Source of the DNA: Candidatus Poribacteria bacterium
GTDB taxonomy: Bacteria > Poribacteria > WGA-4E > WGA-3G
Reading direction: 5' to 3'
Length of the DNA stretch: 64,000 bases
Assembly (NCBI GenBank): GCA_022825825.1
Contig: JAJDWA010000050.1
Location: 1 to 64,000 of the forward strand
Shown: positions 10,002 through 45,180 of the stretch, one piece after another
Layout of the letters: every line of letters starts with the position of its first letter
Position numbering within the stretch: position 1 is the first letter of the stretch
Position numbers and translations under genes: made by a program
The notes under the pieces: generated by a model
What the model was told of the DNA's origin: nothing
Seen by the model: the letters and a program-made list of their open reading frames with translations, nothing else
Database searches by the model: none

Positions 10002-10031
10002 TTGAAAGTCTGCTCCCAAAAATGGTATAAT
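10002..10031 (+). promoter_or_regulatory. Sigma70-like promoter of leader RNA copy 1
   Basis: TTGAAA at 10002-10007, an 18-bp spacer and a consensus TATAAT at 10026-10031. The predicted start is about 10038, just before the CCAG that opens the structured leader. Confidence 0.7.
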
Positions 10032-10036
10032 TTACT

Positions 10037-10130
10037 TACCAGTTTTGAGTGGCACTGCTACGAATAGGACCCCCAATTCCGTTTCTGCTACCCTCCCACC
10101 TAGTAGGGGGATAAAAAAAGCTGGTACTGG
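10037..10130 (+). ncRNA. Pseudoknotted leader RNA, copy 1
   Basis: Helices by eye: P1 CCAGUUUU (10039-10046) with AAAGCUGG (10117-10124); P2 GAGUGGCA (10047-10054) with UGCUACCC (10086-10093), one mismatch and one G-U; pseudoknot CUGCUA (10055-10060) with UAGUAG (10101-10106). A small GGA/UCC hairpin lies inside the P2 loop. A second CUGG (10127-10130) ends 9 nt before the AUG of the next gene. The same architecture occurs in five other places in the window. This copy is the most degenerate but is behind the best -10 box. Confidence 0.7.
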
Positions 10131-10139
10131 AATAACCAA

Positions 10140-10424
10140 ATGGCTTTCTTTTTTCCTACATTTGACACAAGTTGGTCGGACAAAGAAATTGAACTAAAAG
10201 AGGTTATTGTAAATCTTGACGATTTTGACCTTATAAAGCGCGAAGGGACTATAATCAGAGCCGAGGGAGAGTCAAAATCTACTGCTCAATCATTGAACAA
10301 TGTCATGATTGCTAAATGCAAGACAGTCGGAGCTGCGCAGTATGTCATGCGTAAAATTTTGGAAAAAAAAGTGGTCACAATAGACGAAGTTCGTGCTATT
10401 GAAGAAGACGCACCGCTTTTCTAA
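10140..10424 (+). CDS. Hypothetical 94-residue protein behind leader RNA
   Basis: Starts at ATG 10140, nine bases after the leader RNA. No purine-rich Shine-Dalgarno is present other than the leader's GGUACUGGAA. The protein is soluble and mixed alpha/beta by composition: MAFFFPTFDTSWSD, then an acidic EIELKEVIVNLDDF strand region and a helical C-terminus ending EEDAPLF. I do not recognise a domain. The leader-controlled start and separate downstream gene (73 bp gap) suggest its own transcript. Confidence 0.55.
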   Translation: MAFFFPTFDTSWSDKEIELKEVIVNLDDFDLIKREGTIIRAEGESKSTAQSLNNVMIAKCKTVGAAQYVMRKILEKKVVTIDEVRAIEEDAPLF

Positions 10425-10496
10425 CGTAACGGGGCGGTGGATTCACTTCCGCCTCTTCATTTTTTTCTTAGTCAGATTAAATAGGAGGGTGTAACT

Positions 10497-11066
10497 ATGG
10501 CAGTTGAAAAAGGTAACGCGTCGGTTTTAAGCAAACTGGAGACTCTTAAACAGGAAATTCAAGAATTAAAGGGGAAGTTAAGGGGTATGTATATCAAGAC
10601 TGAAGAAGATAAAATTATAAACTTCGATCATTACCGCAGTATTGAAGTATATCCAGGGCAGGATGCATACGTACTTAGGGCAATCACGTCTATGTACTAC
10701 GAGAAACGTAGTGGTTGTGATGACATCGCTATATTTGATCAGGAAGTGGATGCATCTTATGCACTAGTTGACTTCTTTAATGCCCTAACCAATGGTAAAC
10801 ATACATGGGATGTAAGCAACGTCAAAAGCCTATCCATAGCGTGGTCTAGGGTTAAGGTGGATAACGAGAGTCTGCCGATATTAGAGAGATCAGAAATTAG
10901 CGTCATTGGCTTAGGGAAATTCGTGATTAGGCACCCATCCAAATGTAGGACAGATTATGATCTTAATGATCAGAAAAAGACGGTGGAATCCGAGCTAATA
11001 ACTGCATTAAATCAGGAAATTGAAATCTGCTGGAAACCGTGCGATGAATTGAATAGTAATGCATGA
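10497..11066 (+). CDS. Hypothetical protein upstream of methyltransferase stump
   Basis: 189 residues behind a strong GGAGGGTG ribosome site at about 10481. The N-terminus is a short coiled coil (VLSKLETLKQEIQELKGKLR). The rest is mixed, with many aromatic and charged residues (YYEKRSGCDDIAIFDQEVD, HTWDVSNVKSLSIAW). No catalytic motif seen. Its stop overlaps the ATG of the methyltransferase stump at 11063 (ATGA), so the two were once translationally coupled. Function unknown. Confidence 0.6.
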   Translation: MAVEKGNASVLSKLETLKQEIQELKGKLRGMYIKTEEDKIINFDHYRSIEVYPGQDAYVLRAITSMYYEKRSGCDDIAIFDQEVDASYALVDFFNALTNGKHTWDVSNVKSLSIAWSRVKVDNESLPILERSEISVIGLGKFVIRHPSKCRTDYDLNDQKKTVESELITALNQEIEICWKPCDELNSNA

Positions 11067-11182
11067 TCAGCATCTATTTCAGTGATAGTTTAGAAATCCT
11101 ACGAGGGATGGACGACGAGAGCGTTGATCTCATTTCCGCCAATCCGCCATTCAACAACGGAGTAACTATAACACTTTCTTAG
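11063..11182 (+). pseudogene. N-terminal stump of DNA methyltransferase
   Basis: 39 codons reading MISIYFSDSLEILRGM, then VDLISANPPFNNG, which is the start of a SAM-dependent DNA methyltransferase: a GDxLE-like opening followed by motif IV, here NPPF. The similarity ends abruptly at about 11160 and the frame stops at 11182. It parallels the intact gene at 13238 (LCGDNLELIQQLPDRSIQLV then SPPY), but is too divergent to be a recent copy. It is overlapped by the stop codon of the gene before it. Confidence 0.6.
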
Positions 11183-11708
11183 TCAACTTGCTCGTGCGAA
11201 GGAAAGTATTCATAAACTATCATTGATTATAAAAGGAACTTGATACGTGACGACCTTTGCCGCAAGCGTAACAGAACGCATCATTCATAGAACCCGCTTG
11301 GCGAGGCGCGAAAAACGCTCACTCGGCTCCACGCCACCCACCCACCGCCGGCGTTCGCGAAAGACACGCCTCGCCTGCGCTACATTTACAGCTGTCCGCT
11401 GCCCCCTAACGGGCAGTAAAGGGAGGCATCAGTCCAATTTCAGTAGGCATTTCAATAGACACTTTAGTAGGCACTTCAGTGGACATTCAGTAGGCACTTT
11501 AGAATCAAAATCTCTATGCAAGCGAGAATTTACGCCCCCTTGTGATCCCACCGCGGCGGCGCGTGCTTTTGGCGTTCACTTTGGGCAGGCAGGACGCGCC
11601 ACACCACTCCGCAGGGCGGACGCTTCACTACCGCAGGCTTTGCGCGTTCACCTCCGCCCACCTTCTAATCATCTGGTCTAAAGACTCATACAGAACATGG
11701 ATTAGCCT
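11183..11708. other. Gene-free stretch with a 12-bp tandem array
   Basis: No real gene seen. A 144-codon frame at 11247-11681 is composed of low-complexity Arg/His/Pro stretches created by repeats, and I reject it. The stretch includes GC-rich, imperfectly repetitive sequence (CGCCTCGCC, GGCGAGGCGCG) flanking the tandem array described separately. Confidence 0.5.
11437..11501. repeat. Tandem array of ~12-bp units
   Basis: About five and a half imperfect units: ATTTCAGTAGGC (11437), ATTTCAATAGAC (11449), ACTTTAGTAGGC (11461), ACTTCAGTGGAC (11473), ATTCAGTAGGC (11485, one base short), then ACTTTA. This is a minisatellite-like repeat. Whether it binds a protein is unknown. Confidence 0.7.
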
Positions 11709-12116
11709 TTACACCCTCCTTCTTGATTCAACATCCCATGCCCATGAGGCAGCTTCAGCTTCGGTTATGTTTCCTCTTGAACCGGATATCTGAGCAATAA
11801 TAGACTGTATCTCGCTGATATTCGTAGGTTTATACACTTTTTTCAACCTTTTATTCAGATATTCACAAGCATCAGATTGCCAATTCCATAAGAAACATCC
11901 GGGACTCATTTCAATCGGATCAGTGCTATTGTTCCATTTACCAGATTCATCTTGAGTTCTAAAGCAGCTGAGCCGATTTACAGAAGATGCGTGTCTATGT
12001 TCCATCATCTCGGAAATGTCCTCATAACTTATACCTTGCCGATGACTTATCCAATTGACGAGGACCATTGGAGCGGTGATTCTCTCGTCGGGTTTTTGCC
12101 TGTTAGAAACTCTCAT
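11709..12116 (-). CDS. Hypothetical small protein
   Basis: About 135 residues from the ATG pair at 12116-12119, chosen because GGAGGAA lies directly upstream; the frame is open to 12167. The N-terminal half (ERITAPMVLVNWISHRQGIS then YEDISEMMEHRH) suggests a helical, possibly HTH-like, region. The C-terminal half is rich in Trp and charged residues. No family recognised. It lies 28-79 bp downstream of another small minus-strand gene, so the two may be one operon running against the surrounding genes. Confidence 0.45.
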   Translation of the reverse strand: MRVSNRQKPDERITAPMVLVNWISHRQGISYEDISEMMEHRHASSVNRLSCFRTQDESGKWNNSTDPIEMSPGCFLWNWQSDACEYLNKRLKKVYKPTNISEIQSIIAQISGSRGNITEAEAASWAWDVESRRRV

Positions 12117-12194
12117 CATTTCCTCCATATCTATCAATTTGTGTATCACGGAGAATGCTGATAGCATCTCTCTTTTGTCTATGGTACTTCATCA

Positions 12195-12395
12195 TCAACT
12201 TGTGTAAGAGGATCCCTCGTATTCGTACGGAATATCGCCTGAGGGCAACCAATCATCCAGTATTCCCGGAAGTCCTGGGTCATGTTTTGTGAATGCTTCC
12301 TTTGATTCAAACCGTCTGCCGGTACCAATATCGTGAGTCCACATCTTAACACATTCTGCCCAATACTCCCATGTACCCTGAGAGAAACCAGTCAT
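12195..12395 (-). CDS. Hypothetical 66-residue protein
   Basis: Opens MTGFSQGTWEYWAECVKMW and ends EYEGSSYTS. It is rich in Trp, Tyr and Gly, with no membrane segment or motif I recognise. It precedes the 11709-12116 gene on the same strand. It could be a real small gene or part of a decayed one; there is only weak ribosome-site support. Confidence 0.35.
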   Translation of the reverse strand: MTGFSQGTWEYWAECVKMWTHDIGTGRRFESKEAFTKHDPGLPGILDDWLPSGDIPYEYEGSSYTS

Positions 12396-12603
12396 TATTC
12401 TCAGTTTATGAGAATCTGCATTCTTTAGTCTTGAATCGGTCTTAGTGACTCATGGTTTCGCCACAGGAATATTATACCATGTTGGACACCGCTAATACCA
12501 AGATTACGAAAACGCCATTCCCCTTTTGCAACCGACTCCATGCCTGCATCGTTAAAACCCACAATGACACCTACCAAACCCTTCCAAAGAAAGGAATTGA
12601 AAC

Positions 12604-13101
12604 ATGTCAAAACTGACCATAACCGAAGCCGTCAAGGTAATTCCAGTCTCCGAATCAACCCTTCGACGCGACCTCAAAAGCGGAAAAGTCTCCTTTGAAA
12701 CCGACGCGAAAAACCGAAAGCAGATAGACATTTCAGAACTCACACGCGTCTATGGACAGCTAAAACAATCGGCAGAAACTCGTAGGGGCGGGATTACCCC
12801 GTCCGAACAGACAGAACCCGTCAACGACACCCACCAAACCCCGTCAATGAACAGGAATGAAACCCATCAAAACCCCTCCATGACAGACACTGACACCCCC
12901 AAAATCGTCGCCTTACTCGAGAACCAGATCACCGATCTCAAAGCGCAGCTCGCACAAGCCGCCGATCGGGAAACCGCACTGACAAGCGAGAAATCCAAAC
13001 TCCTCGATATGCTATCAGCTGAACAAGAAAAGACCCGGGTGTTAATGCTCCCGAACCCCGAAAAGAAACGCAGCTGGCTGGATAGACTCACCGGAAGATA
13101 A
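12604..13101 (+). CDS. HTH and coiled-coil DNA-binding protein, copy 1
   Basis: 165 residues behind an AAAGGAATTG ribosome site. Residues ~3-50 are a helix-turn-helix of excisionase/MerR style (LTITEAVKVIPVSESTLRRD then LKSGKVSFETD). A Gln/Thr/Pro-rich linker follows, with repeats of NxTHQTPSMN type, then a coiled coil (~95-145) and a basic amphipathic end (KKRSWLDRLTGR). A close architectural twin lies at 44539 and a fragment at 43462. Both intact genes are followed within 2-27 bp by the promoter of a leader RNA, so the protein is a good candidate regulator of that RNA or its promoter. That link is inference. Confidence 0.75.
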   Translation: MSKLTITEAVKVIPVSESTLRRDLKSGKVSFETDAKNRKQIDISELTRVYGQLKQSAETRRGGITPSEQTEPVNDTHQTPSMNRNETHQNPSMTDTDTPKIVALLENQITDLKAQLAQAADRETALTSEKSKLLDMLSAEQEKTRVLMLPNPEKKRSWLDRLTGR

Positions 13102-13103
13102 AC

Positions 13104-13132
13104 TTGCCTTTTTTTCATATATCTGATACACT
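13104..13132 (+). promoter_or_regulatory. Sigma70-like promoter of leader RNA copy 2
   Basis: TTGCCT at 13104-13109, 17-bp spacer, TACACT at 13127-13132 in the context TCTGATACACTCTTAAAA. The context is almost identical in copy 3 (TCTGATATACTCTTAAAA). The promoter begins two bases after the HTH gene's stop. Confidence 0.75.
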
Positions 13133-13138
13133 CTTAAA

Positions 13139-13230
13139 ATCCAGTTTGGGTGGCACTGCTATGAAACGGATCCCACTCCGTTTTCTGCCACCCTCCCACC
13201 ATAGCAGGGGGATAACCGACTGGGGCTGGA
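13139..13230 (+). ncRNA. Pseudoknotted leader RNA, copy 2 (methyltransferase leader)
   Basis: P1: CCAGU at 13141 with GACUGG at 13218-13223. P2: GGGUGGCA (13148-13155) with UGCCACCC (13186-13193), perfect. Pseudoknot: CUGCUAUG (13156-13163) with CAUAGCAG (13200-13207), perfect 8 bp. Apical hairpin: CGGA/UCCG (13167-13180). The pseudoknot differs from copy 3 in two paired positions with pairing kept. A second CUGG (13226-13229) ends 8 nt before the methyltransferase AUG. Confidence 0.8.
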
Positions 13231-13237
13231 ATTCAAT

Positions 13238-14386
13238 ATGACAAAAATAGCGGACGCTACTTTTACAGACGCTGCAGGGAAAGGTGTTTCAAGTACACCC
13301 TGTACTGATAATGGTGTACCAATTGATCAAATCCTATGTGGGGATAACCTCGAACTTATTCAGCAATTACCGGATCGTAGCATTCAATTGGTGATTACCT
13401 CACCCCCTTACTTTCAGCAGCGAGATTACGGCAGTGGGATGGGAAATGAAGAGAATGTCAATGAGTACATTGAGATTCTACTTTGTCTTTTCCGCGAATG
13501 TGTCCGTGTTCTGACGGATGATGGCAATATCGTTTTCAATATAGGCGATAAATATCAGAACAGCAACCTACTTTTGGTTCCCTATCGTTTCGCGCTCGCA
13601 GCGATGGATACAGCAGGGGTTAGACTTGTAAATGAAATTACATGGGTCAAAAAGAATCCAACACCGCGTCAGTTCAGCCGCCGCCTCGTCAGTAGTACAG
13701 AACCCTTCTTCCATTTTGCCAAATCAGACCGCTATTTCTACAATCCCAAAGCCTTCTTAGCAAAAACCCATGCCCCGTCGTCCCCAAAGAAAAAAAATGG
13801 CACCAATGTTGGACAGAAATATTTTCAGCTGATTGATAAATCCGAACTCTCCGACGCAGAAAAAAGCCTCGCACGGACAGAATTAGCGCAGGTGATTCAA
13901 GAGGTGAAAAGCGGGAAAACCCATAGTTTTCGGATGAAAATACGCGGCATCCATGCAGCTCCATTCGGTGGGCAGGAGGGAGGGCGCACATCGCAACTCA
14001 GAAATAAAGGGTTCACAATCATTCGGATTCACGGCAACAAACTCAAACGAGATGTAATCAAAACCGATGATGTGATCGAAACCTCCGATGTGATTGAAAC
14101 ACCTGTTGCAACCCTTAAAGGGAATAAACACCCAGCGATCTATCCCGTGGAAGTCGTGGAAGAATTTCTACATCTCCTCACACCCACCGGTGCCGTGGTA
14201 CTTGATCCGTTTATGGGGGCTGGCTCAACCGCTGTTGCTTGTAAAAAACTCGGTAGGCACTATATCGGCTATGATATTAATGCTGAATACTGTGAAGATG
14301 CCCGACAGCGTGTCTCAGAAACCCCGAGTTCGTCGCAATGCCAACCGGATGAATCGCAGACCTATTTGAGATTTGAGGGGAAGTGA
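13238..14386 (+). CDS. SPPY-type DNA methyltransferase (N4-cytosine or N6-adenine)
   Basis: 382 residues. Motif IV is TSPPY at ~54-58 after VDQ-like strand QLVITSPPYFQQRDYG, and motif I (AdoMet binding) is DPFMGAGSTAVACKKLGR near 323, giving the beta-class order (IV first, I last). SPPY is usual for N4-cytosine enzymes of type II systems. The central part (~180-270) is the likely target recognition region. It starts 8 nt after the leader RNA, without a classic Shine-Dalgarno, and its stop overlaps the start of the putative endonuclease (GTGATG). Together they look like a type II restriction-modification pair whose methyltransferase translation is under leader control. Confidence 0.85.
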   Translation: MTKIADATFTDAAGKGVSSTPCTDNGVPIDQILCGDNLELIQQLPDRSIQLVITSPPYFQQRDYGSGMGNEENVNEYIEILLCLFRECVRVLTDDGNIVFNIGDKYQNSNLLLVPYRFALAAMDTAGVRLVNEITWVKKNPTPRQFSRRLVSSTEPFFHFAKSDRYFYNPKAFLAKTHAPSSPKKKNGTNVGQKYFQLIDKSELSDAEKSLARTELAQVIQEVKSGKTHSFRMKIRGIHAAPFGGQEGGRTSQLRNKGFTIIRIHGNKLKRDVIKTDDVIETSDVIETPVATLKGNKHPAIYPVEVVEEFLHLLTPTGAVVLDPFMGAGSTAVACKKLGRHYIGYDINAEYCEDARQRVSETPSSSQCQPDESQTYLRFEGK

Positions 14387-15519
14387 TGAACCAAATCCGT
14401 TCAATTCTCGAAGATACCTATCAACTCGCAGAATCAAGCGACAGTCCCTATTCGAATCTCTCAGAAAGCCAAGAACGTTGGGTCAACGCCATCATCAAAA
14501 GAGCCGAATCCTTTAGAGCCGTTCTGACCGTCCTGATTACATCCCTCGTGAAAAAGATTCAGACCCCCACCCAAGATGTCCGCTATCATCAAACAGAACT
14601 CCCCAACGGTTATTCAGGCAGAGGCTTAGACACAGAGCATATAACCCCCTTCATGAAAGAGAAATTTAGACGGTTTGCTATGGCTGAGAGTGGATGGTTG
14701 ACCCGCTCTCTTGAGCAGCCTTACCCTTACACATTAGACTATGAAGGGAAGATTCGTAGTAAAACCGTGAAAACCGCCTTTCTTCAGATTCTCAACGACA
14801 TTGAGGAAAATAAAACCGATCCGAAAAAATATCTCCAATCGATTTTCTCCGCCTTAATTACCTTGATGGAAGAATCACAGATAAGCTTCGACTTCCTAAA
14901 AGAGGCACAACACACAGAGACAGTAACGATTGAAAAAATAGTAGATCTTCTCAGACACCACTTTTCGCACGACTATGGCGTTGCGGGTGCTTCACGGCTT
15001 CCAGTAGTGGCTGTTTATTCTGCTTATGAGATGCTAATGGAGATTCAGCGATATGAAGGTAAAACCCTCTCGCCATTGAAGAGCCATACTGCATCAGATA
15101 CCAGATCTCATGGAATACGCGCAATTGGAGATATCGAGGTCATGCACAACAATAATTTTTTTGAGGGCGTCGAAATCAAACATAACATCCCCATTTCCTT
15201 GGGACTTGTTGAAGATGCCTATCAAAAATTCGCACAGACCCCTGTTTCTCGGTACTATCTCCTCACCACAGCAGAGCCCAATGTTGAAGATATAGATTCA
15301 GTAAACGACTTAGTGAGTGAAATTCACAAACAACACGGATGCGAGGTGATTGTCAACGGTATTCTCCCTTCATTGAAATACTATCTGCGATTGCTAAGGA
15401 GTCCCCAACTTTTTTTAGAGGGTTACTCGAGAAATCTTCAGTTGGATTTTCAACAGAAAACAGAAATCAAAGAAACGCATTTGCGGCATTGGGAAACCCT
15501 GCTAAATCCATCATACTGA
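14386..15519 (+). CDS. Putative type II restriction endonuclease
   Basis: About 377 residues from ATG 14386, with GAGGGG upstream; overlaps the methyltransferase stop. The C-terminal half has a plausible PD-(D/E)XK core: IRAIGDIEV (acidic residue after a strand), then FFEGVEIKH, where E-x-K is the catalytic pair, preceded by RLPVVAVYSAYEML and PLKSHTASDTRSHG. This block is familiar from restriction enzymes partnered with SPPY methyltransferases, but I cannot name the specificity. The N-terminal half is helical. The gene order methyltransferase then nuclease with overlap supports the assignment. Confidence 0.7.
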   Translation: MNQIRSILEDTYQLAESSDSPYSNLSESQERWVNAIIKRAESFRAVLTVLITSLVKKIQTPTQDVRYHQTELPNGYSGRGLDTEHITPFMKEKFRRFAMAESGWLTRSLEQPYPYTLDYEGKIRSKTVKTAFLQILNDIEENKTDPKKYLQSIFSALITLMEESQISFDFLKEAQHTETVTIEKIVDLLRHHFSHDYGVAGASRLPVVAVYSAYEMLMEIQRYEGKTLSPLKSHTASDTRSHGIRAIGDIEVMHNNNFFEGVEIKHNIPISLGLVEDAYQKFAQTPVSRYYLLTTAEPNVEDIDSVNDLVSEIHKQHGCEVIVNGILPSLKYYLRLLRSPQLFLEGYSRNLQLDFQQKTEIKETHLRHWETLLNPSY

Positions 15520-15544
15520 ATCAGAAAGCAATCGGAGTTTAGGA

Positions 15545-15862
15545 ATGAAATGGTATCAGATGCGATGGGCGCAAAAGTATTGGGGAAAAGAAGCGAGAGA
15601 ACGCTATCGACGGTACCTCCACCCCGATGTGTGGAAAACAAAGCGAAAAGCCGTTTTACAAGCCGCCGGATTCCGACATAGGGGGCACCGAATTCGATGT
15701 ATCGTGAGCCTATCATCTTTTGGTCCCATCTCACGATCGCAGACTTTGAGATATAGGCGTTCGGCGTCCAATGCCAATACATCCTTCTCATCAAAACTAT
15801 TCCCTGTCCAGAACCACATCCACCTATTCAAAGCAGGTGTCCGACAGCGGCAATTTCCCTAA
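15545..15862 (+). pseudogene. Decayed HNH-type endonuclease
   Basis: The first ~43 residues (YWGKEARERYRRYLHPDVWK then KRKAVLQAAG) match the lead-in of short HNH nucleases, where a WKxKRxAVLxR helix precedes the first CxxC. After that the zinc-binding cysteines and the HH motif are missing, and remnants such as YHLLVPSHDRRL appear in another frame. I read it as a frameshifted, degenerate HNH gene. Its start lies 26 bp after the endonuclease gene. A hypothetical protein is the alternative. Confidence 0.4.
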
Positions 15863-15874
15863 AAATTCAGATTT

Positions 15875-15935
15875 TTTTATATTTATGACATTTATGCACG
15901 AAATGTGATCAAGAAATGGGTCTTTAAGAACAGTG
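15875..15935 (+). repeat. Copy of the 61-kb inverted-repeat element arm
   Basis: Contains ATGCACGAAATGTGATCAAG followed by GGGTCTTTAA, matching with few differences the sequence at about 61190-61240. It lies directly upstream of the promoter of leader RNA copy 4. Confidence 0.65.
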
Positions 15936-15956
15936 TGAACAGATATTAAAACAATT

Positions 15957-15987
15957 TTGTTTGAAATTTTTATTTTTCTGATAGACT
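15957..15987 (+). promoter_or_regulatory. Promoter of leader RNA copy 4
   Basis: TAGACT at 15982-15987 in the context TCTGATAGACTCTATG, the same -10 context as copies 2 and 3. The -35 could be TTGTTT at 15957 (19-bp spacer) or TTGAAA at 15961 (15-bp spacer). Confidence 0.55.
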
Positions 15988-15993
15988 CTATGT

Positions 15994-16082
15994 AACTTGG
16001 CGGATAGGAGTATCAGCTCGGCGCGCTCAGCGTCGAGTCCTATCCAACCCTCTGATACGGGTTGCATGCTGAGTTGCCAAGG
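15994..16082 (+). ncRNA. Pseudoknotted leader RNA, copy 4
   Basis: P1: CUUGGC (15996-16001) with GCCAAG (16076-16081). P2: GGAUAGGA (16002-16009) with UCCUAUCC (16038-16045), perfect. Apical hairpin: CUCGGCGC/GCGUCGAG (16017-16037). Loop pseudoknot: GUAUCAG (16010-16016) with CUGAUAC (16052-16058), the latter presented in a hairpin AACCC/GGGUU (16046-16063). A further contact is possible between the apical CUCAGC and GCUGAG near 16068. GGGAGG follows at about 16081. Same helix order as copies 1-3 with entirely different helix sequences. The next gene begins at 16161, with a 12-codon frame (16118-16156) between. Confidence 0.75.
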
Positions 16083-16160
16083 GAGGTTTCCTTGTGAAAC
16101 ATTAATTTTTTACTCGGATGCCTGGGTGTTGCTATCTACTTCGGAAGTGTACCTAAAGTT

Positions 16161-17186
16161 ATGAAGCGAGATTTACGCGTATTTGCTCTCATTTTTTTCT
16201 TGTTGGTAAATATCACCGGCTGTTCGGTCACTCGGTTTGTAGAAACTCGGATGGGGCATGGCATTAAAAAAGCAAATAGAACCGATTTGGATTTGGATTT
16301 CCAACTCGATTTTAACGAAACTGCCCGCAGTTTCATCGTAACCCTGGAGTATCAGCCTTATGCTATCTACAAACCTCGTATAACGCTGACTGATTTGGGG
16401 GTCGGTCTGGCTTCTTTAGGGCTTTTAGGCAAGGTTTTCTATGATAATTGGGATCACGATAATACATTTACCTTTGCCGATGATACATTCGACTGGTATG
16501 ATTCCCAACCGTGGGAGAAAGCCGTGCTGATAGGAGTACCGATAGACATCTTACTTTACTGGGGCTTTTCGTATCCCTTCGACCAGAAAGCGATAAGACT
16601 CCCAAAACAGCCGCTCATTGCACATCCCTATCGTATTGCACTTCCGGACCATGGTCACATTAGCAGAGAGTACAGAACGCTCACCGGAACGGAGCAGATC
16701 GAGATACAGAAGTTTCTGTCTGAACTCAGACATCCCTCCTACCTTCAAAACATTGAATTTCTCAAGTTTAGAGCTTCTACAGAGGTGGGTGGGAGACAAT
16801 ACAACAGAGACTACACAGTTCGCGGGTTCATTCCGCCTCCGCCGCCACCGTCAAATGGAGAGTTATTCGTTGAAGTCGATGTGCAGTGGATCGAACACCG
16901 TTTACGGGCTGGAGAAAAGGCAACATTAAAGGTGATTGTGGAAAATACTGGCGAAACGCCTCTCACAGGCGTCACGACAACAACCTCGAGTCCCGATCCG
17001 TATTTTGACAATTGGGCGTTAGAATTTGGGAACATCGCACAAGGCACGTCCGAAACAAGGGTATTACGTTGCGTCACGTCCAAGGATCTGCGTCCACAGA
17101 CGACTGTATCTGTCGACCTTCGTTTTGAAGCTGCCACTGGTGTGATTCATCCAGAAATTGAGACAGAGTTTGAAATAATAGAATGA
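16161..17186 (+). CDS. Lipoprotein with CARDB-like domain
   Basis: 341 residues. The N-terminus is a lipoprotein signal with lipobox NITGC at ~21. The middle (~60-210) has two weakly hydrophobic segments (LASLGLLGKVFYDNW, AVLIGVPIDILLYWGFSY). The C-terminal ~110 residues (FVEVDVQWIEHRLRAGEKAT, IVENTGETPLTGV) match the CARDB/APHP beta-sandwich used for adhesion in secreted proteins. Its stop overlaps the caspase gene start by four bases (ATGA), so the two are translationally coupled. It is preceded by leader RNA copy 4 about 80 bp upstream. Probably part of an envelope complex with the two following proteins. Confidence 0.75.
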   Translation: MKRDLRVFALIFFLLVNITGCSVTRFVETRMGHGIKKANRTDLDLDFQLDFNETARSFIVTLEYQPYAIYKPRITLTDLGVGLASLGLLGKVFYDNWDHDNTFTFADDTFDWYDSQPWEKAVLIGVPIDILLYWGFSYPFDQKAIRLPKQPLIAHPYRIALPDHGHISREYRTLTGTEQIEIQKFLSELRHPSYLQNIEFLKFRASTEVGGRQYNRDYTVRGFIPPPPPPSNGELFVEVDVQWIEHRLRAGEKATLKVIVENTGETPLTGVTTTTSSPDPYFDNWALEFGNIAQGTSETRVLRCVTSKDLRPQTTVSVDLRFEAATGVIHPEIETEFEIIE

Positions 17187-34849: not shown

Positions 34850-34851
34850 TT

Positions 34852-35279: not shown

Positions 35280-35287
35280 CTTCTGAA

Positions 35288-35370
35288 TCCGACCGGGTAG
35301 GCGGGGCATTCTCAGCCGTGATTACCTATCCCCCCGTGAGACGGGTTGCATGCCGGGTTGCCGGGAAACT
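35288..35370 (+). ncRNA. Pseudoknotted leader RNA, copy 5 (orphan)
   Basis: P2: GGGUAGG (35295-35301) with CCUAUCC (35325-35331), one G-U. Pseudoknot: UCUCA (35310-35314) with UGAGA (35337-35341) in a CCCG/CGGG hairpin (35333-35345). A GGCAU/AUGCC contact is also possible. The 3' block GGGTTGCATGC...GGTTGCC is shared with copy 4. P1 is weak. No plus-strand gene follows for more than 400 bp; a minus-strand RHH gene converges on it, so this copy is an orphan or acts in trans. Confidence 0.6.
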
Positions 35371-38696: not shown

Positions 38697-39289
38697 CGAC
38701 TAAAGCGAAAGGGGAGAAACTCCTAGAAGATAATGTCTATATTGTTTATTGCTGGCGGTATGAACATCAATCTATCTGTAAAATAGGTAAGAGCATTTTT
38801 AGCAAGTTTTATGACAATAGTATAAAGCCGGCATTACGTTTTAGCGTTCTTGACATTGAGATTCTGGGAATTTGCCTATGTGATAGCAAACAAGCGCGCG
38901 ACAAACTGGAATTGTATCTATTAGACAAGCGATTCAATAGAGTGCGTTCTGACCGGGAATGGGTCTACTTAAACTCTCAAGTCAGAGATTGGATTCAGAA
39001 AGACTGCCTTGATGGAAATTGGACCGTTGAATATTTCCAAAAATTGGAGAACGAGTATAAAGAAGCCCATCGTAATCGTAATAAAGAATATCAGCGCAAG
39101 AAAAGGGATGAAGAGATTCTTAAAAAACGCGCCCGAAAAATGTACGATCGATATTCTGCTAAGTCCACATCAGGATTAACCGTTGGAGGTTCTACACTGG
39201 CACGCATCATAGTTGCTGAAGATTTGGAGATGCAGGGAGTGGATGCCTCCCGTATAGAAGAATTGTTAGCGGAAATAGAAGAAAATTAA
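38693..39289 (+). CDS. T5orf172/GIY-YIG-like nuclease-family protein
   Basis: 198 residues with a GTG start at 38693. The N-terminal ~100 residues follow the T5orf172/MUG113 version of the GIY-YIG fold: NVYIVYCWRYEHQSICKIGK (replacing GIY...YIG), then ALRFSVLDIEILGICLCDSK, the helix KLELYLLDKRF and REWVYLNSQ. The C-terminus is a long basic helix (NRNKEYQRKKRDEEILKKRA). Translationally coupled to the HsdR_N-like gene. It is one of four GIY-YIG-type genes in the window. Nuclease activity is likely but unproven. Confidence 0.65.
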   Translation: MTTKAKGEKLLEDNVYIVYCWRYEHQSICKIGKSIFSKFYDNSIKPALRFSVLDIEILGICLCDSKQARDKLELYLLDKRFNRVRSDREWVYLNSQVRDWIQKDCLDGNWTVEYFQKLENEYKEAHRNRNKEYQRKKRDEEILKKRARKMYDRYSAKSTSGLTVGGSTLARIIVAEDLEMQGVDASRIEELLAEIEEN

Positions 39290-39403
39290 CGCTACGGGAC
39301 AGGGGTCTTGCCTATAGGAGAACTGAAAAAATCACATTTTACGTCTTTTAGAAGAGTGAACGAGGTTTTATTTACGGAGTATTACCGAGCAAAGGATACC
39401 TAT

Positions 39404-41167
39404 ATGAGAACTCAAATTATTCCGATCGCATGGTGTGTGATATTTTCACTTGCTACGTTGTCCCTCCCCGCGGAAGAACGAGAGACACAACTCCCAAATC
39501 TATGGACATTCCACTGGGAGCTTGACGAAACGATAGAGGGACAGGAAAGTGCGATGCCCGTTGAACCCGTAGAGGTGACGTTTCTCAACGAGCCGGTAGA
39601 AATCGCGTCTCATAGTGCGTCTTTGGCGTTACTGCGGAAGTATTCGGTGCATCTGGGACCTGAATGGAGTCCAAGACTTGCGTATAGATTGCTCCAGACT
39701 TTTGAATCTATACCCCAAGAAACGAACAATCCTTATGGAGAAACCCCCAGCGTAGAAGCCTCTGTGTGGCGGTTAGGCAACCGCCATATTCAAGATGACC
39801 TTTCGGTGGAATATCGAGATGGACAGCAGGTTGTCACCATCGCTGAAGAGGCGTTTGTGCATGCAACACCGCTATTAGCGGAAATTGAAGGCGTTCGGGG
39901 TAGGTACTTCTCTAAACGTCTACATCATGCCGTGGTTCGGTTTGTCACCGACAGCGGTGCCGATAGATACGCCCTTGAACGGATATTACAGGAACGTTAC
40001 GCCGTCAGCATAAATATCCCAGATTATAGCGAACTCACGCGATATACAACCGGTGAACACGCAGGACGTTTTTCAGAATTCAAGAACGAAGAACTTATCG
40101 CGCTCGTCTCAATGTTAGAAGAGTTTCCGTCAGGTATGCTGAAAACACCAGGACTGAAATATTTCGTGAGGCGACTTGATGGGCAACCGCATCCGCTTTA
40201 TCCAGGCGCGCCCGCGGTCGCATGGCCGGGGGCAGGCTATATTGAGTTTATGGAATCTGCCTTTAGAGCACAAGGCGCGGACTATATTCACCGTTTGATT
40301 CTCCATGAAAAAGCACATTTCTTATGGGAATATCTCTTTGATGAGCAACTCAAACAGGATTGGATTGAACTTGGCGGTTGGTTTGAAAATCCCGACGATG
40401 TTGATGGGTGGTCAACGACAAAACAAGTTGAGTTCGTCTCTGCTTATGCCCATGGTGTAAATCCGAATGAGGACATGGCGGAGAGCATCAGTTTTTACAT
40501 TGTGAACCCTGACAAACTTCGTTCGCGTTCGCCTGCCAAATATGAGTTTATCCAGAACCGAGTGATGCACGGCACACGCTATCTCTCAAAGATACGCGAG
40601 GACTTAACCTTTGAAGTTTACAACCTCTACCCTGATTATGTCTATCCAGGGCGGATTATACGAATTGATATACAGGTTGAAGGGGAACCCGAAGAAGATA
40701 AACTCATAACGGTAGAAATTGAGATTCATGGAGAGAGTGACTTAGATACTGCACAAACCGCATATATCAGAGTTTTTAGTGAAAAAGGCACTTTCTTTGA
40801 CCTCGCGTGGATGTCTCCGGTTGATGCCAGTGGAATGAGCGTTCCGTCTGGGCATATTCTGCGTGGAGAAGCAACGCTATCGAAATATGCAGCCAATGGA
40901 TACTGGAAACCTGACCAAATCCGAATATGGGATGCTCATCGTAATGAGAGACTTGCGTCCCCAACAATCAATTTCGGGTGGAAACTCTACATTGACAATC
41001 CACTTGCCGATTGTGAACCCCCAATTTATGTCAAAAACTCAATGCGACTTTCCTTATCAGATGCAACGACTGAAGAAGGCAGACCTTATCAAATTGTTAC
41101 CGCCCGTTGGCAACTTATTGAAAAAAACGGTATACGGGGTGTTTACGCACTGAAGTGCCACCTTTAA
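39404..41167 (+). pseudogene. Secreted HExxH metalloprotease, N-terminal part (split by IS)
   Basis: From ATG 39404 (signal peptide MRTQIIPIAWCVIFSLATLS) about 582 residues are native, up to GVYA at 41149. The last few codons to TAA 41167 come from the IS. A zinc-peptidase motif, LILHEKAHFLWEYL (HExxH), lies near residue 301, with a downstream acidic stretch as a possible third ligand. Removing the IS and one CAC copy restores GVYA-QMNDENRE in frame with the 42411 segment, giving a protein of ~900 residues ending in a FlgD-like sorting domain. Probably non-functional in its present form. Confidence 0.8.
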
Positions 41168-41189
41168 TTTGGACCAAAAATTAGAAAAG

Positions 41190-42038
41190 TTAAGACAAGT
41201 TTTGTTGCTCAAATTCCACAGGTGTCAAATACCCTAACGCTGAGTGAGGACGTTTCTGATTATACACCTGTGTGAGAAACTGCTGGATGCGTTCTCGAGC
41301 CTCGGTGATGCTTTGATAGTCATTGAGGTGAACTTCTTCCTCCTTGAGGGTGCGGATGAGTCTTTCAGCATACCCGTTCTCCCACGGTCGCCCTCTGTGT
41401 GCTAACGAGATCTCAATCCCATGATGGGTGAGGATGGAGATATAAGCACTTGAAAGATACTGCACGCCTTGATCACTGTGGTGGATCTCTGGAGACCCGT
41501 TTTGGTGTAAGGCTGCCTCCAAGGGGTTCAAGGTCAGAGCTTGTGTCAGATGCTGACTCAGATGCCACCCTCTGATCATGCGAGTGAAGACATCCATGAG
41601 GAGGGCAACATACACGAAGCGTCCTTTCAAGCGGACGTAGGTAATATCGCCTACCCAGACCTGATCGGGACGACAGACCTCAACGGACTCCAAGCGATTC
41701 ACCCATGGAAACCGGGCGACTTCCGACGATCTCGTGGTTTGACCGCAAAAACGTTTGACGGAAATGGATAAGTTTTCTTCTTTCATCAACCGGGCAACGC
41801 GTTTATACCCGACGGTGTATCCTTGACGCAGTAGCAACGCCCTGATGCGCCTATATCCATAGGTCGGATACCGAGCCGCTAACCGCTGTATTTCCGCTCG
41901 CAGGACGTCTTGAGACGGGTCACTTTTCGGTTGATAATAGAAGCTACTTTTGTTGAAACCCAGCGTCTCACATATCTGTCGCACCGAATACTCCTTGCGC
42001 AACGTCTCAATGAGGCGTCGCTGTTGAGATGGATTCAA
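41190..42038 (-). CDS. IS3-family transposase OrfB (DDE integrase core)
   Basis: 282 residues. An HTH_21-like N-terminus (VRQICETLGFNKSSFYYQ; YPTYGYRRIRALLLRQGYTV) is followed by the rve core: DQVWVGDITYVRL (first Asp), then IHHSDQGVQYLSS (second Asp) and RGRPWENGYAERLIRTLKEE (catalytic Glu region). It ends in the usual NQKRPHSALGYLTPVEFEQ. Overlaps orfA by four bases; normally made as an OrfAB fusion by programmed frameshifting. Confidence 0.92.
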   Translation of the reverse strand: MNPSQQRRLIETLRKEYSVRQICETLGFNKSSFYYQPKSDPSQDVLRAEIQRLAARYPTYGYRRIRALLLRQGYTVGYKRVARLMKEENLSISVKRFCGQTTRSSEVARFPWVNRLESVEVCRPDQVWVGDITYVRLKGRFVYVALLMDVFTRMIRGWHLSQHLTQALTLNPLEAALHQNGSPEIHHSDQGVQYLSSAYISILTHHGIEISLAHRGRPWENGYAERLIRTLKEEEVHLNDYQSITEARERIQQFLTQVYNQKRPHSALGYLTPVEFEQQNLS

Positions 42039-42325
42039 TCCAACAAAGTCGATGCTTTTTTTTGAATTTCTAATGCCAATGTCAACCGTCCAACAAGTTG
42101 CTCGAGTTGAGCGATCCGCTCCGTCGCCTCGCTGGATTGCTTATCCGTGGAGGCAAACAGAGACGCCACATTTTCAACGACTTGCTGCTTCCACTTTGAG
42201 AGCTGTTGTTCGCTGAGGTTATGTCGCCGACACAGTTCTGCTTGGGAACTTTCACCACTGAGTGCCTCAAGCACGACTTCTGCTTTAAACTCGGGAGTGT
42301 ATCTTCTTCGTTTTCGTTTCGCCAT
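42035..42325 (-). CDS. IS3-family OrfA (HTH protein)
   Basis: 96 residues from ATG 42325, with AAAGGAG upstream. MAKRKRRRYTPEFKAEVVLE, then ALSGESSQAELCRRHNLSEQ and LSKWKQQVVEN form the HTH_Tnp_1 domain, followed by a leucine-zipper-like coiled coil (RIAQLEQLVGRLTLALEIQK). It binds the terminal repeats and provides the N-terminus of the OrfAB transposase. The remnants at 22.4 and 60.5 kb derive from relatives of this gene. Confidence 0.9.
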   Translation of the reverse strand: MAKRKRRRYTPEFKAEVVLEALSGESSQAELCRRHNLSEQQLSKWKQQVVENVASLFASTDKQSSEATERIAQLEQLVGRLTLALEIQKKASTLLD

Positions 42326-42410
42326 CGGAATTCTCCTTTCAATGAGATTGTTATTGTAGCACAATCTTGTTTTAGAAAGTGGTCCAGTTTTCCGGTGGCA
42401 GTACACACAG

Positions 42411-43373
42411 ATGAATGATGAGAATAGGGAAACTTACTCACGGCGCGAAAATTGGGGAGAATATAATCCAGAAACCCGTGAGGCAACAGTTAAACTCATT
42501 ATTCCTGACTACTTTCAGAACGGCACTTATACAATGTCCACCATTACAATGGAAGATGTCGCATTAAATGGCGGGAGCGTTTATTTTACTGACTGGTTTG
42601 GTGAAGAGCACAATTCAGAACTTGATGAACCCCCGGCTACCATTGAGATTCAAACAACAAATCCTGATTCGACACAACCTGTTCTGGATATAAATCGGAT
42701 TACAATTCAAGCAGAACCGACACACCCACACGTACCAAACGGGGAAACCCGCGTTGACATCATTTTCAGAGTCAAGGATGACATCAGTGGCTATGCCCAA
42801 ACAGACATGCTGCTACGCGATCCTCAGGGGGGGACGCATTTTTTTCGGCATTATGATGTGGATTTTTGGGACATCTATTTTTCACGGGATCCGAAGGTTT
42901 ATGAGATCTATCACAAGACGATTATTTTGCCTGTCGGCAGTGCGCCTGGCACGTGGGGGCTTGCTGAGATGAACGTCCATGACAAAGCACAGAACACGCT
43001 TCGCGCGGATTTCACAGAGATTGTTCGTTTTGAAGTGGAAGAGGGAGCTGCCGCTGCGCCTATAATCGCTTCACTTCCTGATGATACACAGTTGCTGGCA
43101 AATTACCCCAATCCGTTTAATCCAGAGACTTGGATACCCTACCAATTAGCAAGTGCCAGCGACGTCCAAATTACCATTTACGATATAAGGGGTCTGTTAG
43201 TTCACACACTACCACTTGGGCATCAATCCGCAGGGCATTATACAGGTAGAAGCCGTGCAGCGTATTGGGACGGGCGAAATGGTTTCGGAGAAAAAGTCGC
43301 CAGTGGCGTCTATTTCTATACACTCACTGCCGGCAAGTTCACAGCGACACGGAAGCTGTTGATACGGAAATAA
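42411..43373 (+). pseudogene. Secreted metalloprotease, C-terminal part with FlgD-like sorting domain
   Basis: 320 residues continuing the protein interrupted at 41150; the true junction is at 42409. Beta-rich domains (ATVKLIIPDYFQNGTYTMST, RVDIIFRVKDDISGYAQTDM) are followed by the C-terminal block LANYPNPFNPETWIPYQLA, VQITIYDIRGLLVHTLPLGH, YWDGRNGFGEKVASGVYFY and FTATRKLLIRK. This is the FlgD-Ig/type-A sorting module, and the WIPYQLA variant is the main hint of Poribacteria. No start codon is functional here; the listed ATG is simply the first Met. Confidence 0.8.
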
Positions 43374-43461
43374 GGCATATCAGAAAAACGAGGAAGGAGG
43401 GTGTTTTGTTGTCTACTATCCTTCTATTGAAAGCACTGATCCCACGGTGCACTCGGAAACT

Positions 43462-43620
43462 ATGCAGAATGTATCACTTCAGCAAGCCGTCAAAATGACA
43501 GGCAAGAGCGAATCAACGCTCCGTCGCGATGTGAAAAAAGGAAAGGTATCCGTAGGACGCGCAAGCGTGAACTTTTACGTGATTTCCAATTCAATTTGCC
43601 ACTTGCGAAACCACTCATAA
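43462..43620 (+). pseudogene. Fragment of HTH/coiled-coil protein gene
   Basis: 52 codons reading MQNVSLQQAVKMTGKSESTL, RRDVKKGKVSVGRASVN, then unrelated residues to TAA. It matches the HTH start of the 12604 and 44539 proteins (ESTLRRDxxxGKVS) and lacks the linker and coiled coil. The similarity ends where the 3' end of the convergent GIY-YIG gene begins (43575). Confidence 0.7.
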
Positions 43621-44333
43621 AGAGTTTTGTAGGGAATTTGTTCAAACGCTTTGAAAAATTGCTTGCGTTTTTCGGTTATATCCATATTCATCGGCATAAG
43701 AAGGACAAAGAAAAACCACCTTGCCTGCGCGTATTCGGGACGTTTCTTTGTTTCTGACATCTTCTGACATGCCTCTGCGCTGTGCCTCTTGCCATATCTC
43801 GGATTCTTCGCCCCGCGTTTTGTTTCCGACATCCTCTGACAAGTTTCTGCGCTGTGCTTCTTGCCATACATAGAGGCGTTTTCACCTGTCCTACCATAAT
43901 TTTTACCCTTCTTTGTTTCCGATATTTTCTGGCATATCTCTGTGGGACGACGCTTGCCCTTGAGTGCTTCCGAAATATTCTGGCGATGTTCTACACTAAG
44001 TTTCTTGCCATAAAACGGATGCTTTTCACCGCTTACGGTTTCTGATGTCCAACCCTCCCCGCCTTCTGTTTGATTATACCCGTTATGAAAGTCGCCGAAA
44101 TGTGCTATCCAATACATTTCCCTTTCTTTGAGGTATTCAGGATCCGTAATTCCGTCCTCGATGATCTCACGGGTAAAGTTTTCCTTACCATATTTAGCCA
44201 TCGCATCCTTTAAGGATTTACTATCACGCTTATCCCTCCAACGCTGTTTATCGCGCACAGGAAGATCGCGTTCAGTTTTCCCTGTGTAACCTTTTCCGTT
44301 AATCTTGTTTCGCCATCTGTAAATAGTTGCCAT
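43575..44333 (-). CDS. GIY-YIG homing-type endonuclease with NUMOD3 repeats
   Basis: 252 residues. The GIY-YIG core is at the N-terminus (ATIYRWRNKINGKGYTGKTE, RWRDKRDSKSLKDAMAKYG, then IAHFGDFHNGYNQTEGG with the usual Asn). Four NUMOD3 DNA-binding repeats follow (GEKHPFYGKKLSVEHRQNIS, AEICQKISETKKG-type, ASMYGKKHSAETCQRMS, NPRYGKRHSAEACQKMS). The last ~50 residues look foreign. This is the architecture of phage-type homing endonucleases, here free-standing. It begins 9-10 nt after minus-strand leader RNA copy 6, so its translation is probably leader controlled. Confidence 0.85.
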   Translation of the reverse strand: MATIYRWRNKINGKGYTGKTERDLPVRDKQRWRDKRDSKSLKDAMAKYGKENFTREIIEDGITDPEYLKEREMYWIAHFGDFHNGYNQTEGGEGWTSETVSGEKHPFYGKKLSVEHRQNISEALKGKRRPTEICQKISETKKGKNYGRTGENASMYGKKHSAETCQRMSETKRGAKNPRYGKRHSAEACQKMSETKKRPEYAQARWFFFVLLMPMNMDITEKRKQFFKAFEQIPYKTLYEWFRKWQIELEIT

Positions 44334-44342
44334 TGTGGGTCA

Positions 44343-44426
44343 CCAGTTACCAGTCTTTAACCCCTGCAAAGTAGGTAGGCAGACACGCCACCAAGCAGTG
44401 ACGCTTTGCATGTCTGCCAACTGGTC
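44343..44426 (-). ncRNA. Pseudoknotted leader RNA, copy 6 (minus strand)
   Basis: Read on the minus strand. P1: CCAGUU (complement of 44419-44424) with AACUGG (44343-44348) or ACUGG (44350-44354). P2: GGCAGACA (44411-44418) with UGUCUGCC (44378-44385), perfect. Pseudoknot: UGCAAAG (44404-44410) with CUUUGCA (44365-44371), perfect. The loop hairpin is CGUCAC/GUGGCG. The doubled CUGG is present (ACUGGUAACUGG), and the second copy ends 9 nt before the endonuclease AUG. Helix sequences are unrelated to copies 1-5, but the layout is the same. Confidence 0.8.
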
Positions 44427-44431
44427 TAAAT

Positions 44432-44460
44432 ATGATAGCATTTTGGCACTTTTCTGTCAA
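44432..44460 (-). promoter_or_regulatory. Sigma70 promoter of leader RNA copy 6
   Basis: On the minus strand: TTGACA (complement of 44455-44460), 17-bp spacer, TATCAT (complement of 44432-44437), then ATTTAGACCAG, which puts the start at the leader's CCAG. Divergent from the HTH gene at 44539. Confidence 0.8.
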
Positions 44461-44538
44461 TGTTTTTTTTGAAACTAACGCAGACTGGATTTCGTTTGAT
44501 ATACTCAAAATTTCCCACATGACACGAAATGAGGGGTA

Positions 44539-45027
44539 ATGAGTATGTCAAAAATAACTATTATCGAGGCAGTCAAACGGATCCCTGTGAGTGAGTCAAC
44601 CCTCCGCAGAGACATCGCTTCTGGCAAGGTATCATCAGAAAAGGACGCAAGAGGCAGACGTGTTATTGACGTGGCAGAATTGCAACGTGCCTATGAAGAA
44701 CTGAAAACCACCAGGAACGATGCCCAGCCAACTGAACAAACGAATAACAAGACAATGACCGGGCATGACAGGGCAGAAATTCTCGCGGTGAAGGACAATC
44801 AGATCGCCGATCTCCGTAATCAACTCGAGAAGGCAGAGTCCCAGTTTCAACTCGCGACGACCGAGAAAACAAAACTCCTGAACTTGCTATCTGCCGAGAA
44901 AGAAGAAAAGCGCGAACTAAAAGCGGAAATGCTCGCCCTGATGCCCCCACCAGAGGAAAGACAGCAGAAAACATCTCCAAACCAAATCAAACCACGCTGT
45001 TGGCTTCAAAGACTGATTGGAGCGTGA
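44539..45027 (+). CDS. HTH and coiled-coil DNA-binding protein, copy 2
   Basis: 162 residues; ATG 44539 or the in-frame ATG at 44545 (GAGGGG upstream fits the first better). It has the same plan as the 12604 protein: HTH (KITIIEAVKRIPVSESTLRR, DIASGKVSSEKD), polar linker with NNKTMTGHD, coiled coil (AVKDNQIADLRNQLEKAESQ, TKLLNLLSAEKEEKRELKAE) and amphipathic end (CWLQRLIGA). Its stop is 26 bp before the promoter of leader copy 3, and its own promoter (GATATACTC near 44498) faces the promoter of leader copy 6. It is therefore placed between two leader RNAs. Regulator role is inferred. Confidence 0.75.
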   Translation: MSMSKITIIEAVKRIPVSESTLRRDIASGKVSSEKDARGRRVIDVAELQRAYEELKTTRNDAQPTEQTNNKTMTGHDRAEILAVKDNQIADLRNQLEKAESQFQLATTEKTKLLNLLSAEKEEKRELKAEMLALMPPPEERQQKTSPNQIKPRCWLQRLIGA

Positions 45028-45053
45028 TAGCCCCGTCGCATCAAAAAAGCGAC

Positions 45054-45082
45054 TTGCCTAATTTTCGCAAATCTGATATACT
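45054..45082 (+). promoter_or_regulatory. Sigma70-like promoter of leader RNA copy 3
   Basis: TTGCCT at 45054-45059, 17-bp spacer, TATACT at 45077-45082 in the context TCTGATATACTCTTAAAA. The -35 and -10 regions match copy 2 closely. Confidence 0.8.
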
Positions 45083-45087
45083 CTTAA

Positions 45088-45180
45088 AACCAGTTTGGGT
45101 GGCACTGCTAAGACTCGGAGTCTCACTCCGTTTCTGCCACCCTCCCACCTTAGCAGGGGGATAAATCAAACTGGTGCTGG
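45088..45180 (+). ncRNA. Pseudoknotted leader RNA, copy 3
   Basis: P1: CCAGUUU (45090-45096) with AAACUGG (45168-45174), perfect. P2: GGGUGGCA (45097-45104) with UGCCACCC (45135-45142), perfect. Pseudoknot: CUGCUAAG (45105-45112) with CUUAGCAG (45149-45156), perfect. Apical hairpin: CGGAGU/ACUCCG (45116-45130). A UCCC/GGGG pairing can enclose the 3' pseudoknot strand. A second CUGG at 45177-45180 ends 8 nt before the AUG. This is the clearest copy. Confidence 0.85.

Follow-up and report, generated by a model that had tools for sequence, protein, structure and literature searches.

What is the short folded sequence that recurs upstream of apparently dissimilar genes along a contig of Candidatus Poribacteria, and what might it do there? 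The contig in question is JAJDWA010000050.1 (assembly GCA_022825825.1), of which positions 1 to 64,000 were analysed (the window, 64 kb). An initial annotation of this DNA, made from the letters alone, had pointed out six sites with a common order of helices, each placed shortly after a promoter-like box. Our comparative analyses have shown a hitherto unrecorded class of predicted 5' leader RNA, 85–95 nucleotides (nt) long, in Candidatus Poribacteria. We consider it fairly probable that this new class acts in cis as a translational switch, in which the first strand of the RNA, X, would free the start codon when paired with one downstream complement (X'1) and mask it when paired with another (X'2). 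The earlier description lacked hairpin P4, X'2, any coupling of the RNA to the start codon and its link with tnpB and restriction-modification genes.

The strands of the leader follow one another in the order X (the RNA's first part), P2, a one-sided strand of 6–8 nt, P3, P2', P4, X'1 and X'2. The one-sided strand between P2 and P3 pairs with the loop of hairpin P4, which holds the 3' pseudoknot strand, and thus forms a pseudoknot of the kissing type. Two alignments carry the proof of this fold. A9 comprises 36 distinct near-gapless rows of TATC type, chosen by eye among 62 tnpB-like ones, and A5 comprises 100 distinct loci, mostly of CCAG type, fitted to R1, a covariance model trained on three window copies and one from contig C66 of G000, the genome to which the window belongs. 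The 5' half of the A9 consensus reads TATCACG TT GGCAGACA (7 nt) CGTTACC-loop-GGTAACG and the 3' half TGTCTGCC TCCCA (7 nt) GGGGATAAAnG CGTGATA CGTGATA, with TACCATG directly 3' of it in 16 of the 36 rows. With P1 taken as X:X'1, together with P2, the pseudoknot, P3 and P4, 98.6% of the 1188 cells of A9 are paired, a percentage raised by the choice of near-gapless TATC-type rows by eye, and double changes occur at 22 of 33 pairs, amounting to 214 double-change cells against 62.0 after column shuffling. In A5, 93.9% of cells are paired and 26 of 32 pairs show double changes (318 cells against 97.5 shuffled). For either alignment, not one of 500 shuffles came up to the observed share of paired cells, covariation score or counts of double changes, and slid controls of A9 were only 32–44% paired. 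Further pair types were the one measure that shuffling could match, in 37 of 500 runs for A9 and in none of 500 for A5. Both alignments lean towards the structure, A9 by its selection and A5 by its fit to R1, and shuffled and slid controls correct only partly for relatedness.

The pseudoknot of A9 is 100% paired, with covariation at six of its seven pairs, while covariation in P4 is modest (one of four pairs in A9, four of four in A5). Per-site pairwise difference in the tnpB type amounts to 0.44–0.45 in the pseudoknot, 0.33 in P3, 0.20 in X, 0.16 in P2 and 0.10 in P4 and the core strands. The two pseudoknot strands (A9 columns 18–24 and 59–65) take 26 and 27 distinct sequences among the 36 copies, a variability that exceeds that of P3, far exceeds that of P2 and the core, and is not obviously needed by a plain structural helix. 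Such variation may prevent kissing contacts between different copies of the leader, many of which can share a cell. The rows omitted from A9 are 26: five copies starting with CCAG (among them the window copy at 44.38 kb, all shifted by MAFFT in alignment A8), L200 with its single X', copies from genus g3 and variants that are longer, shorter or otherwise odd. It is the covariation in these larger alignments, and not the order of helices within the window, that proves the fold. A loose scan of the window for the bare helix order gave five sites, namely four of the six earlier ones and one at 51,314 on the minus strand, which is weakly above chance since 236 Markov resamples of the window averaged 1.3 such sites and reached 5 at most.

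Searches with covariance models showed that the leader extends widely across the phylum. R1 matched 51 of 145 genomes, our own counted, and all 51 belong to the window's family. R2 matched 23 of 30 chosen genomes of the family at E<=0.5, with up to 27 copies per genome. At E<=0.01, R3, trained on tnpB-type copies, had matches in 49 of the 84 Poribacteria genomes searched, with up to 46 copies. Outside the window's family, R3 found the leader in G069 and G067, both of family f4; a further match in G061 (E 0.0017) was rejected as spurious, with no leader visible and an unrelated open reading frame (ORF) adjoining it. In G019, of genus g3, R3 found nothing while R2 gave 17 matches. A pattern scan of a genome collection for the tnpB-type core, which misses copies with divergent letters, returned 63 stretches, 62 of them in Poribacteria records, and the remaining one, in a Bacteriovoracaceae record, had no such fold on inspection. 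Two pattern scans of viral contigs gave no match, so that a phage or virus origin is not supported. Rfam 15, scanned with cmscan at the gathering threshold, had no match in the whole window or in 12 loci of the tnpB, CCAG and B types, and in the stretches tested at E<=10 it gave chance-level matches only. Among the matches listed in the open-licence literature, there was no earlier description of a structured leader in Poribacteria or of a tnpB leader RNA. These data agree with the initial annotation, which had claimed a conserved pseudoknotted fold and recognised no known riboswitch or ribozyme class: the larger alignments covary far above their shuffled and slid controls, and the covariance model and wider search that it had proposed brought up many further copies.

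The RNA occupies the position of a cis-regulatory leader, between promoter and start codon. A −10-like box was found in 161 of 189 distinct copies, and since in most copies it lies just a few nt upstream of the fold, transcription can start there. At the other end, X'2 finishes a few nt before the AUG in most copies. An ATG lies 2–12 nt 3' of the RNA in 134 of the 189, against 29 of 189 in an equal-sized control stretch 40–50 nt away. With gene starts assigned by a simple ORF rule and copies that are not independent of one another, a Shine-Dalgarno core precedes 15 of 111 genes directly behind a leader, as compared with 29 of 56 genes starting >=25 nt away. In five related methylase loci (L039, L062, L077, L099 and L103) the ATG behind the leader opens a short ORF ahead of the methylase, which in L062, read by eye, has 29 codons (MTGKPYFFEKSIQQ..). 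Tandem leader matches, roughly 110–130 nt apart, stand before one gene in G003:C60 (L172) and in G001:C71 (L143).

The 5' strand of P1 has two tandem complements, and both covary with it. When X:X'2 is considered alone on A9, 94.8% of cells are paired and 28 double-change cells are observed against 6.2 shuffled, a count reached by none of 500 shuffles. The tnpB copies contain TATCNNN with NNNGATA twice, genus g3 has ACCGTTG with CAACGG and AACGGT, and family f4 has GGCTTTC with GAAAGCC-A-GAAAGCC or TTGTCCT with AGGACAA-AGGACAA. In L158, L174 and L208, X'1 is unlike X'2, yet both pair with X at most positions. A search for this architecture in 30 tnpB loci, drawn from g3 and from other families (22 genomes), gave a candidate in 12, of which nine, all from f4, score >=26.3; in 62,187 Markov resamples the 99th percentile was 20.8 and the maximum 29.2, which five of the nine f4 loci exceed.

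A main host of the leader is tnpB, carried by elements that we take to be of the IS200/IS605 type. R3 matches in G000, G034 and G036 number 6, 54 and 42, and OrfB_IS605 domains over the cut-off 1, 54 and 41; 78 of these 96 domains (1 in G000, 44 in G034 and 33 in G036) are preceded, at less than 900 nt and in the same orientation, by a leader. In element groups A and B, shared sequence runs from about 110–130 nt before the leader to about 1.25–1.35 kb behind the alignment core, and since it begins before the leader, the leader is internal to the element. A palindromic hairpin stands near each end of the element copies compared. Besides A and B, group C was compared, where one of the two pairs agreed over only 63 bases leftward, and group F, where agreement was partial; in group E, two of three copies lack the core letters on which the comparison relied.

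Leaders before restriction-modification, GIY-YIG/HNH and small secreted-protein genes are divergent in sequence from the tnpB type. From 101 copies of a mostly CCAG-type set, 98 downstream proteins were obtained (three copies had no ORF by the rule used), and 56 of them were scanned against Pfam, those omitted being mostly further MKTI-type proteins and near duplicates. Among the 25 of 58 families listed were 15 N6_N4 methylases, 4 HNH, 3 D12, 2 DpnII, 2 HSDR_N, 2 UvrD and 1 MvaI/BcnI, as raw counts not set against overall gene content; other members of the set are BglII, GIY-YIG with NUMOD3, TnpB and AccA. In a PADLOC scan, the 25 families listed, of 222, were methylase models. Small secreted-type proteins of a multi-copy family beginning with MKTI (MKTILALSILFSAIALPALGELTDADL..) outnumber every other kind of gene product behind the CCAG-type leaders examined; two classification rules assign 31 and 27 of the 98 proteins to this family. 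That MKTI is the first gene of a nuclease operon holds in the window, but elsewhere the second genes were diverse by eye and the idea was dropped. A short weak copy (L010, G000 contig C66:72454-72530; E 0.6 with R1 and 0.2 with R2), with pseudoknot CTGTG/CACAG and P4 CCGC/GCGG, lies 10 nt before accA (Pfam ACCA, E 3.8e-122).

How such a leader could work is suggested by its two complements. Pairings X:X'1 and X:X'2 would be mutually exclusive. In the first state, with the pseudoknot core also folded, neither X'2 nor the start region would be paired and ribosomes could enter, while formation of X:X'2 would place a helix against the start region and turn translation off. The conserved core (CCCAC..pseudoknot..GGGGAUAA) might be the site where a cellular factor or small molecule biases the choice. 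When the 36 A9 copies were folded with ViennaRNA, with P2, P3 and P4 forced and the pseudoknot strands left unpaired, X:X'1 was favoured, with a mean of 0.69 against 0.25 for X:X'2; several copies are near balance, two are almost fully X:X'2 and two form neither well. More tentatively, and with somewhat less than even confidence, we speculate that an old two-state latch sets the translation of TnpB, an RNA-guided nuclease, from transposons of the phylum and was copied onto restriction-modification and homing-type nuclease genes, a common signal at the core switching all of them together.

Several observations weigh against a translational switch of this kind or against its generality. The folding energies favour X:X'1, so that a balance between the two states holds for some of the 36 copies only, and the downstream genes share no obvious metabolite. 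In 55 of the 189 copies no ATG lies 2–12 nt behind the RNA, subtype B having none nearby, and 18 of the 96 tnpB domains are without a detected leader. Likewise, of the matches listed for PF01555 (N6_N4 methylase), 48 in G000 and 18 and 24 in its relatives G034 and G036, only two of the 48 in our own genome adjoin a leader. As to X:X'2, its weaker measures were reached by shuffles (pairs with a double change by 8 of 500, pair types by 16 of 500), X' is single in L200 and X'1 mismatched in L203, both of them rows dropped from A9, and several of the nine f4 copies have a poor X'2. Slippage could also keep the tandem copies of X' partly alike. X'2 is common and old, though the poor X'2 of several f4 copies and the single X' of L200 show that it is not universal.

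Other explanations account for part of these data. The leader might be an operator for a protein, a putative host or element binder (TnpB, a ribosomal or an RNA-binding protein) that represses through the core while X'2 tunes accessibility; a common binder would predict what is seen next to P4, where the core strands are the least variable (0.10, against 0.44 in the pseudoknot and 0.20 in X), and rpsO/S15 offers a precedent (PMC8470358). TnpB as the sole binder leaves the leaders before restriction-modification genes and accA unexplained, and we regard an operator as unlikely, if still worth keeping in mind. We find it rather unlikely that the fold is a passive 5' cap, protecting from RNases or keeping an unstructured, translation-ready start, with X'2 a spare or kept by slippage. 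A fold that begins only a few nt away from where transcription is predicted to start, and mean energies in favour of X:X'1, would fit such a cap, whereas the complementarity of X'2 to X is kept in three sequence-unrelated groups, and in the three loci where X'1 and X'2 differ both still mostly pair. A metabolite or ion riboswitch, in which a putative ligand at the junction or pseudoknot would select X:X'1 or X:X'2, could be read from the compact covarying fold, whose core is conserved, and from what looks like an expression platform adjoining the start codon. We hold this improbable, given that the products of the genes seen downstream, for the most part nucleases, methylases, TnpB and small secreted proteins, have no apparent shared pathway and that Rfam gave no match.

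Two further readings seem to us highly improbable. In one, the sequence would act as DNA, as the end of a transposon or as a single-stranded hairpin that a transposase recognises, in keeping with the proximity of most leaders to tnpB in two of three genomes searched and with the end hairpins of the compared element copies; the leader is nevertheless internal in groups A and B, sits between a −10 box and a start codon and also precedes non-transposon genes. The other is a self-cleaving ribozyme with the topology of that of hepatitis delta virus (HDV), a pseudoknot with a hairpin inside. HDV-like ribozymes have a nested pseudoknot, the helix P1.1 and a catalytic C in J4/2. The order P2, pseudoknot, P3, P2', pseudoknot' is reminiscent of nested pseudoknot ribozymes of this kind, but there was no match to an Rfam ribozyme, P4 encloses the 3' pseudoknot strand, and neither P1.1 nor the catalytic C in J4/2 was recognised by eye. 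We also considered a guide or antisense use of the leader's own letters elsewhere in the element, for which there was no clear signal (pseudoknot 8 against 6.3 expected, X 19 against 11.8), and identity with the omega RNA of TnpB, rejected on position: in 78 cases the leader lies on the 5' side of a tnpB domain, and in groups A and B it is internal to the element.

Within the window itself, all the strands quoted for the six sites were found in place, and a sigma70-type −10 box precedes all six RNAs, as had been claimed, by 7–8 nt, or by 5 nt at 35.28 kb, where the start of the RNA is uncertain. The six sites are real. Four copies (10.04, 13.14 and 45.09 kb on the plus strand and 44.38 kb on the minus strand) are one family by covariance model, R1 having recovered the copy at 44.38 kb, outside its training set, with E 1.9e-6, while those at 15.99 and 35.29 kb were missing from the results of R1 (default filters), R2 (filters off) and R3. 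The 15.99 kb copy is in itself well supported and probably a subtype, with the same helix order and a relative in another genome: in L047 (genome G033) one pseudoknot pair is changed on both sides (ATATCAG/CTGATAT against GTATCAG/CTGATAC) and one P4 pair is changed to G-U. The case for the 35.29 kb copy as a class member is weak: its topology can be read, but its P1 is poor. Both copies carry the block ACGGGTTGCATGC..GTTGCC, in line with the two-copy subtype that had been described, and the weak P1 and the P2 mismatch noticed earlier were recovered at 35.29 and 10.04 kb, respectively. Single-copy fold z lies between −3.6 and −4.8 for the C66 copy and for three of those in the window, is weak at 10.04 kb (−1.4) and 44.38 kb (−1.7), and the signal is absent at 35.29 kb (+0.67). 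The T5orf172/MUG113 protein listed below presumably belongs to the GIY-YIG superfamily.

Leader RNAs of the window with their promoter boxes and adjoining genes (coordinates in the 64-kb window; bit scores are given for models R1, R2 and R3)
Feature	Coordinates	Strand	Basis	Strands and position
-10 box TATAAT	10026..10031	+	sequence	7 nt 5' of the 10.04 kb leader
Leader RNA, CCAG type (10.04 kb)	10039..10133	+	R1/R2 98.0/83.0 bits	X CCAG; P2 GAGTGGCA/TGCTACCC, one mismatch; pseudoknot CTGCTA/TAGTAG; P4 TCCC/GGGA; CTGG twice (X'1, X'2)
94-aa ORF	10140..10424	+	without Pfam match	6 nt 3' of leader
-10-like box TACACT	13127..13132	+	sequence	
Leader RNA, CCAG type (13.14 kb)	13141..13232	+	R1/R2 96.7/92.3 bits	pseudoknot CTGCTATG/CATAGCAG
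DNA methyltransferase (N6_N4_Mtase)	13238..14386	+	Pfam E 4e-47	5 nt 3' of leader
Leader RNA, subtype B (15.99 kb)	15995..16082	+	fold z -3.95; relative L047	P1 CTTGGC/GCCAAG; P2 GGATAGGA/TCCTATCC; pseudoknot GTATCAG/CTGATAC; P4 AACCC/GGGTT; gene start directly behind absent
Possible leader RNA, subtype B (35.29 kb)	35285..35365	+	fold z +0.67	P1 weak; P2 GGGTAGG/CCTATCC; pseudoknot TCTCA/TGAGA; P4 CCCG/CGGG
GIY-YIG + NUMOD3 endonuclease gene	43575..44333	-	Pfam NUMOD3 5.7e-22, GIY-YIG 1.7e-6	6 nt 3' of leader
Leader RNA resembling tnpB type (TTGGCAGACAT..) (44.38 kb)	44340..44424	-	R1 E 1.9e-6; R2 53.9 bits; R3 68.9 bits	P2 GGCAGACA/TGTCTGCC; pseudoknot TGCAAAG/CTTTGCA; tandem ACTGG ACTGG
-10 box TATCAT	44432..44437	-	sequence	
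TTGACA	44455-44460	-	sequence	17 nt upstream of TATCAT box
-10 box TATACT	45077..45082	+	sequence	
Leader RNA, CCAG type (45.09 kb)	45090..45183	+	R1/R2 98.8/94.9 bits	pseudoknot CTGCTAAG/CTTAGCAG; P1 CCAGTTT/AAACTGG
Small secreted-type protein (MKTI..ALPALGELTDADL)	45189..45572	+	sub-threshold Pfam matches only	5 nt 3' of leader
T5orf172/MUG113 protein	45559..46299	+	Pfam 9.8e-6	overlaps 3' end of MKTI gene

TnpB is the ancestor of Cas12, and to our knowledge the control of tnpB expression is largely open. If the translational switch proposed here is correct, tnpB would have a dedicated regulatory RNA, and one RNA fold would link transposon nucleases with restriction-modification genes; the tandem double complement would be a simple two-state design that recurs in sequence-unrelated groups. 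Structured RNAs tied to tnpB elements are already familiar in the omega RNA (reRNA) of TnpB, which comes from the 3' end, reaches the right end of the element and carries the guide, whereas the Poribacteria leader has an internal position at the 5' end and can precede genes other than tnpB as well. The bridge RNA of IS110 is likewise structured and comes from the non-coding part of an insertion sequence, and its loops bind donor and target DNA; in the leader, by contrast, the variable strands are each other's pairing partners, and its own pseudoknot 7-mers occur in the element flanks only 8 times against 6.3 expected. Closer in position are the 5' untranslated regions (UTRs) that control translation. 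In the rpsO operators of E. coli and mycobacteria (PMC8470358), a 5' UTR pseudoknot and an alternative fold control translation initiation, much as we propose for the switching of the leader; that case concerns one ribosomal-protein gene with a known binder, and its fold and sequence are unrelated to the leader. In Salmonella IS200, the 5' UTR of tnpA forms a stem-loop that hides the ribosome-binding site and holds expression low (PMC12594629), and this is again a structured 5' UTR on a gene of an IS200/IS605-type element, in which the stem-loop on tnpA is accompanied by an antisense RNA. The Poribacteria leader differs from it in combining a pseudoknot with two tandem complements, and in preceding both tnpB and non-transposon nuclease genes.

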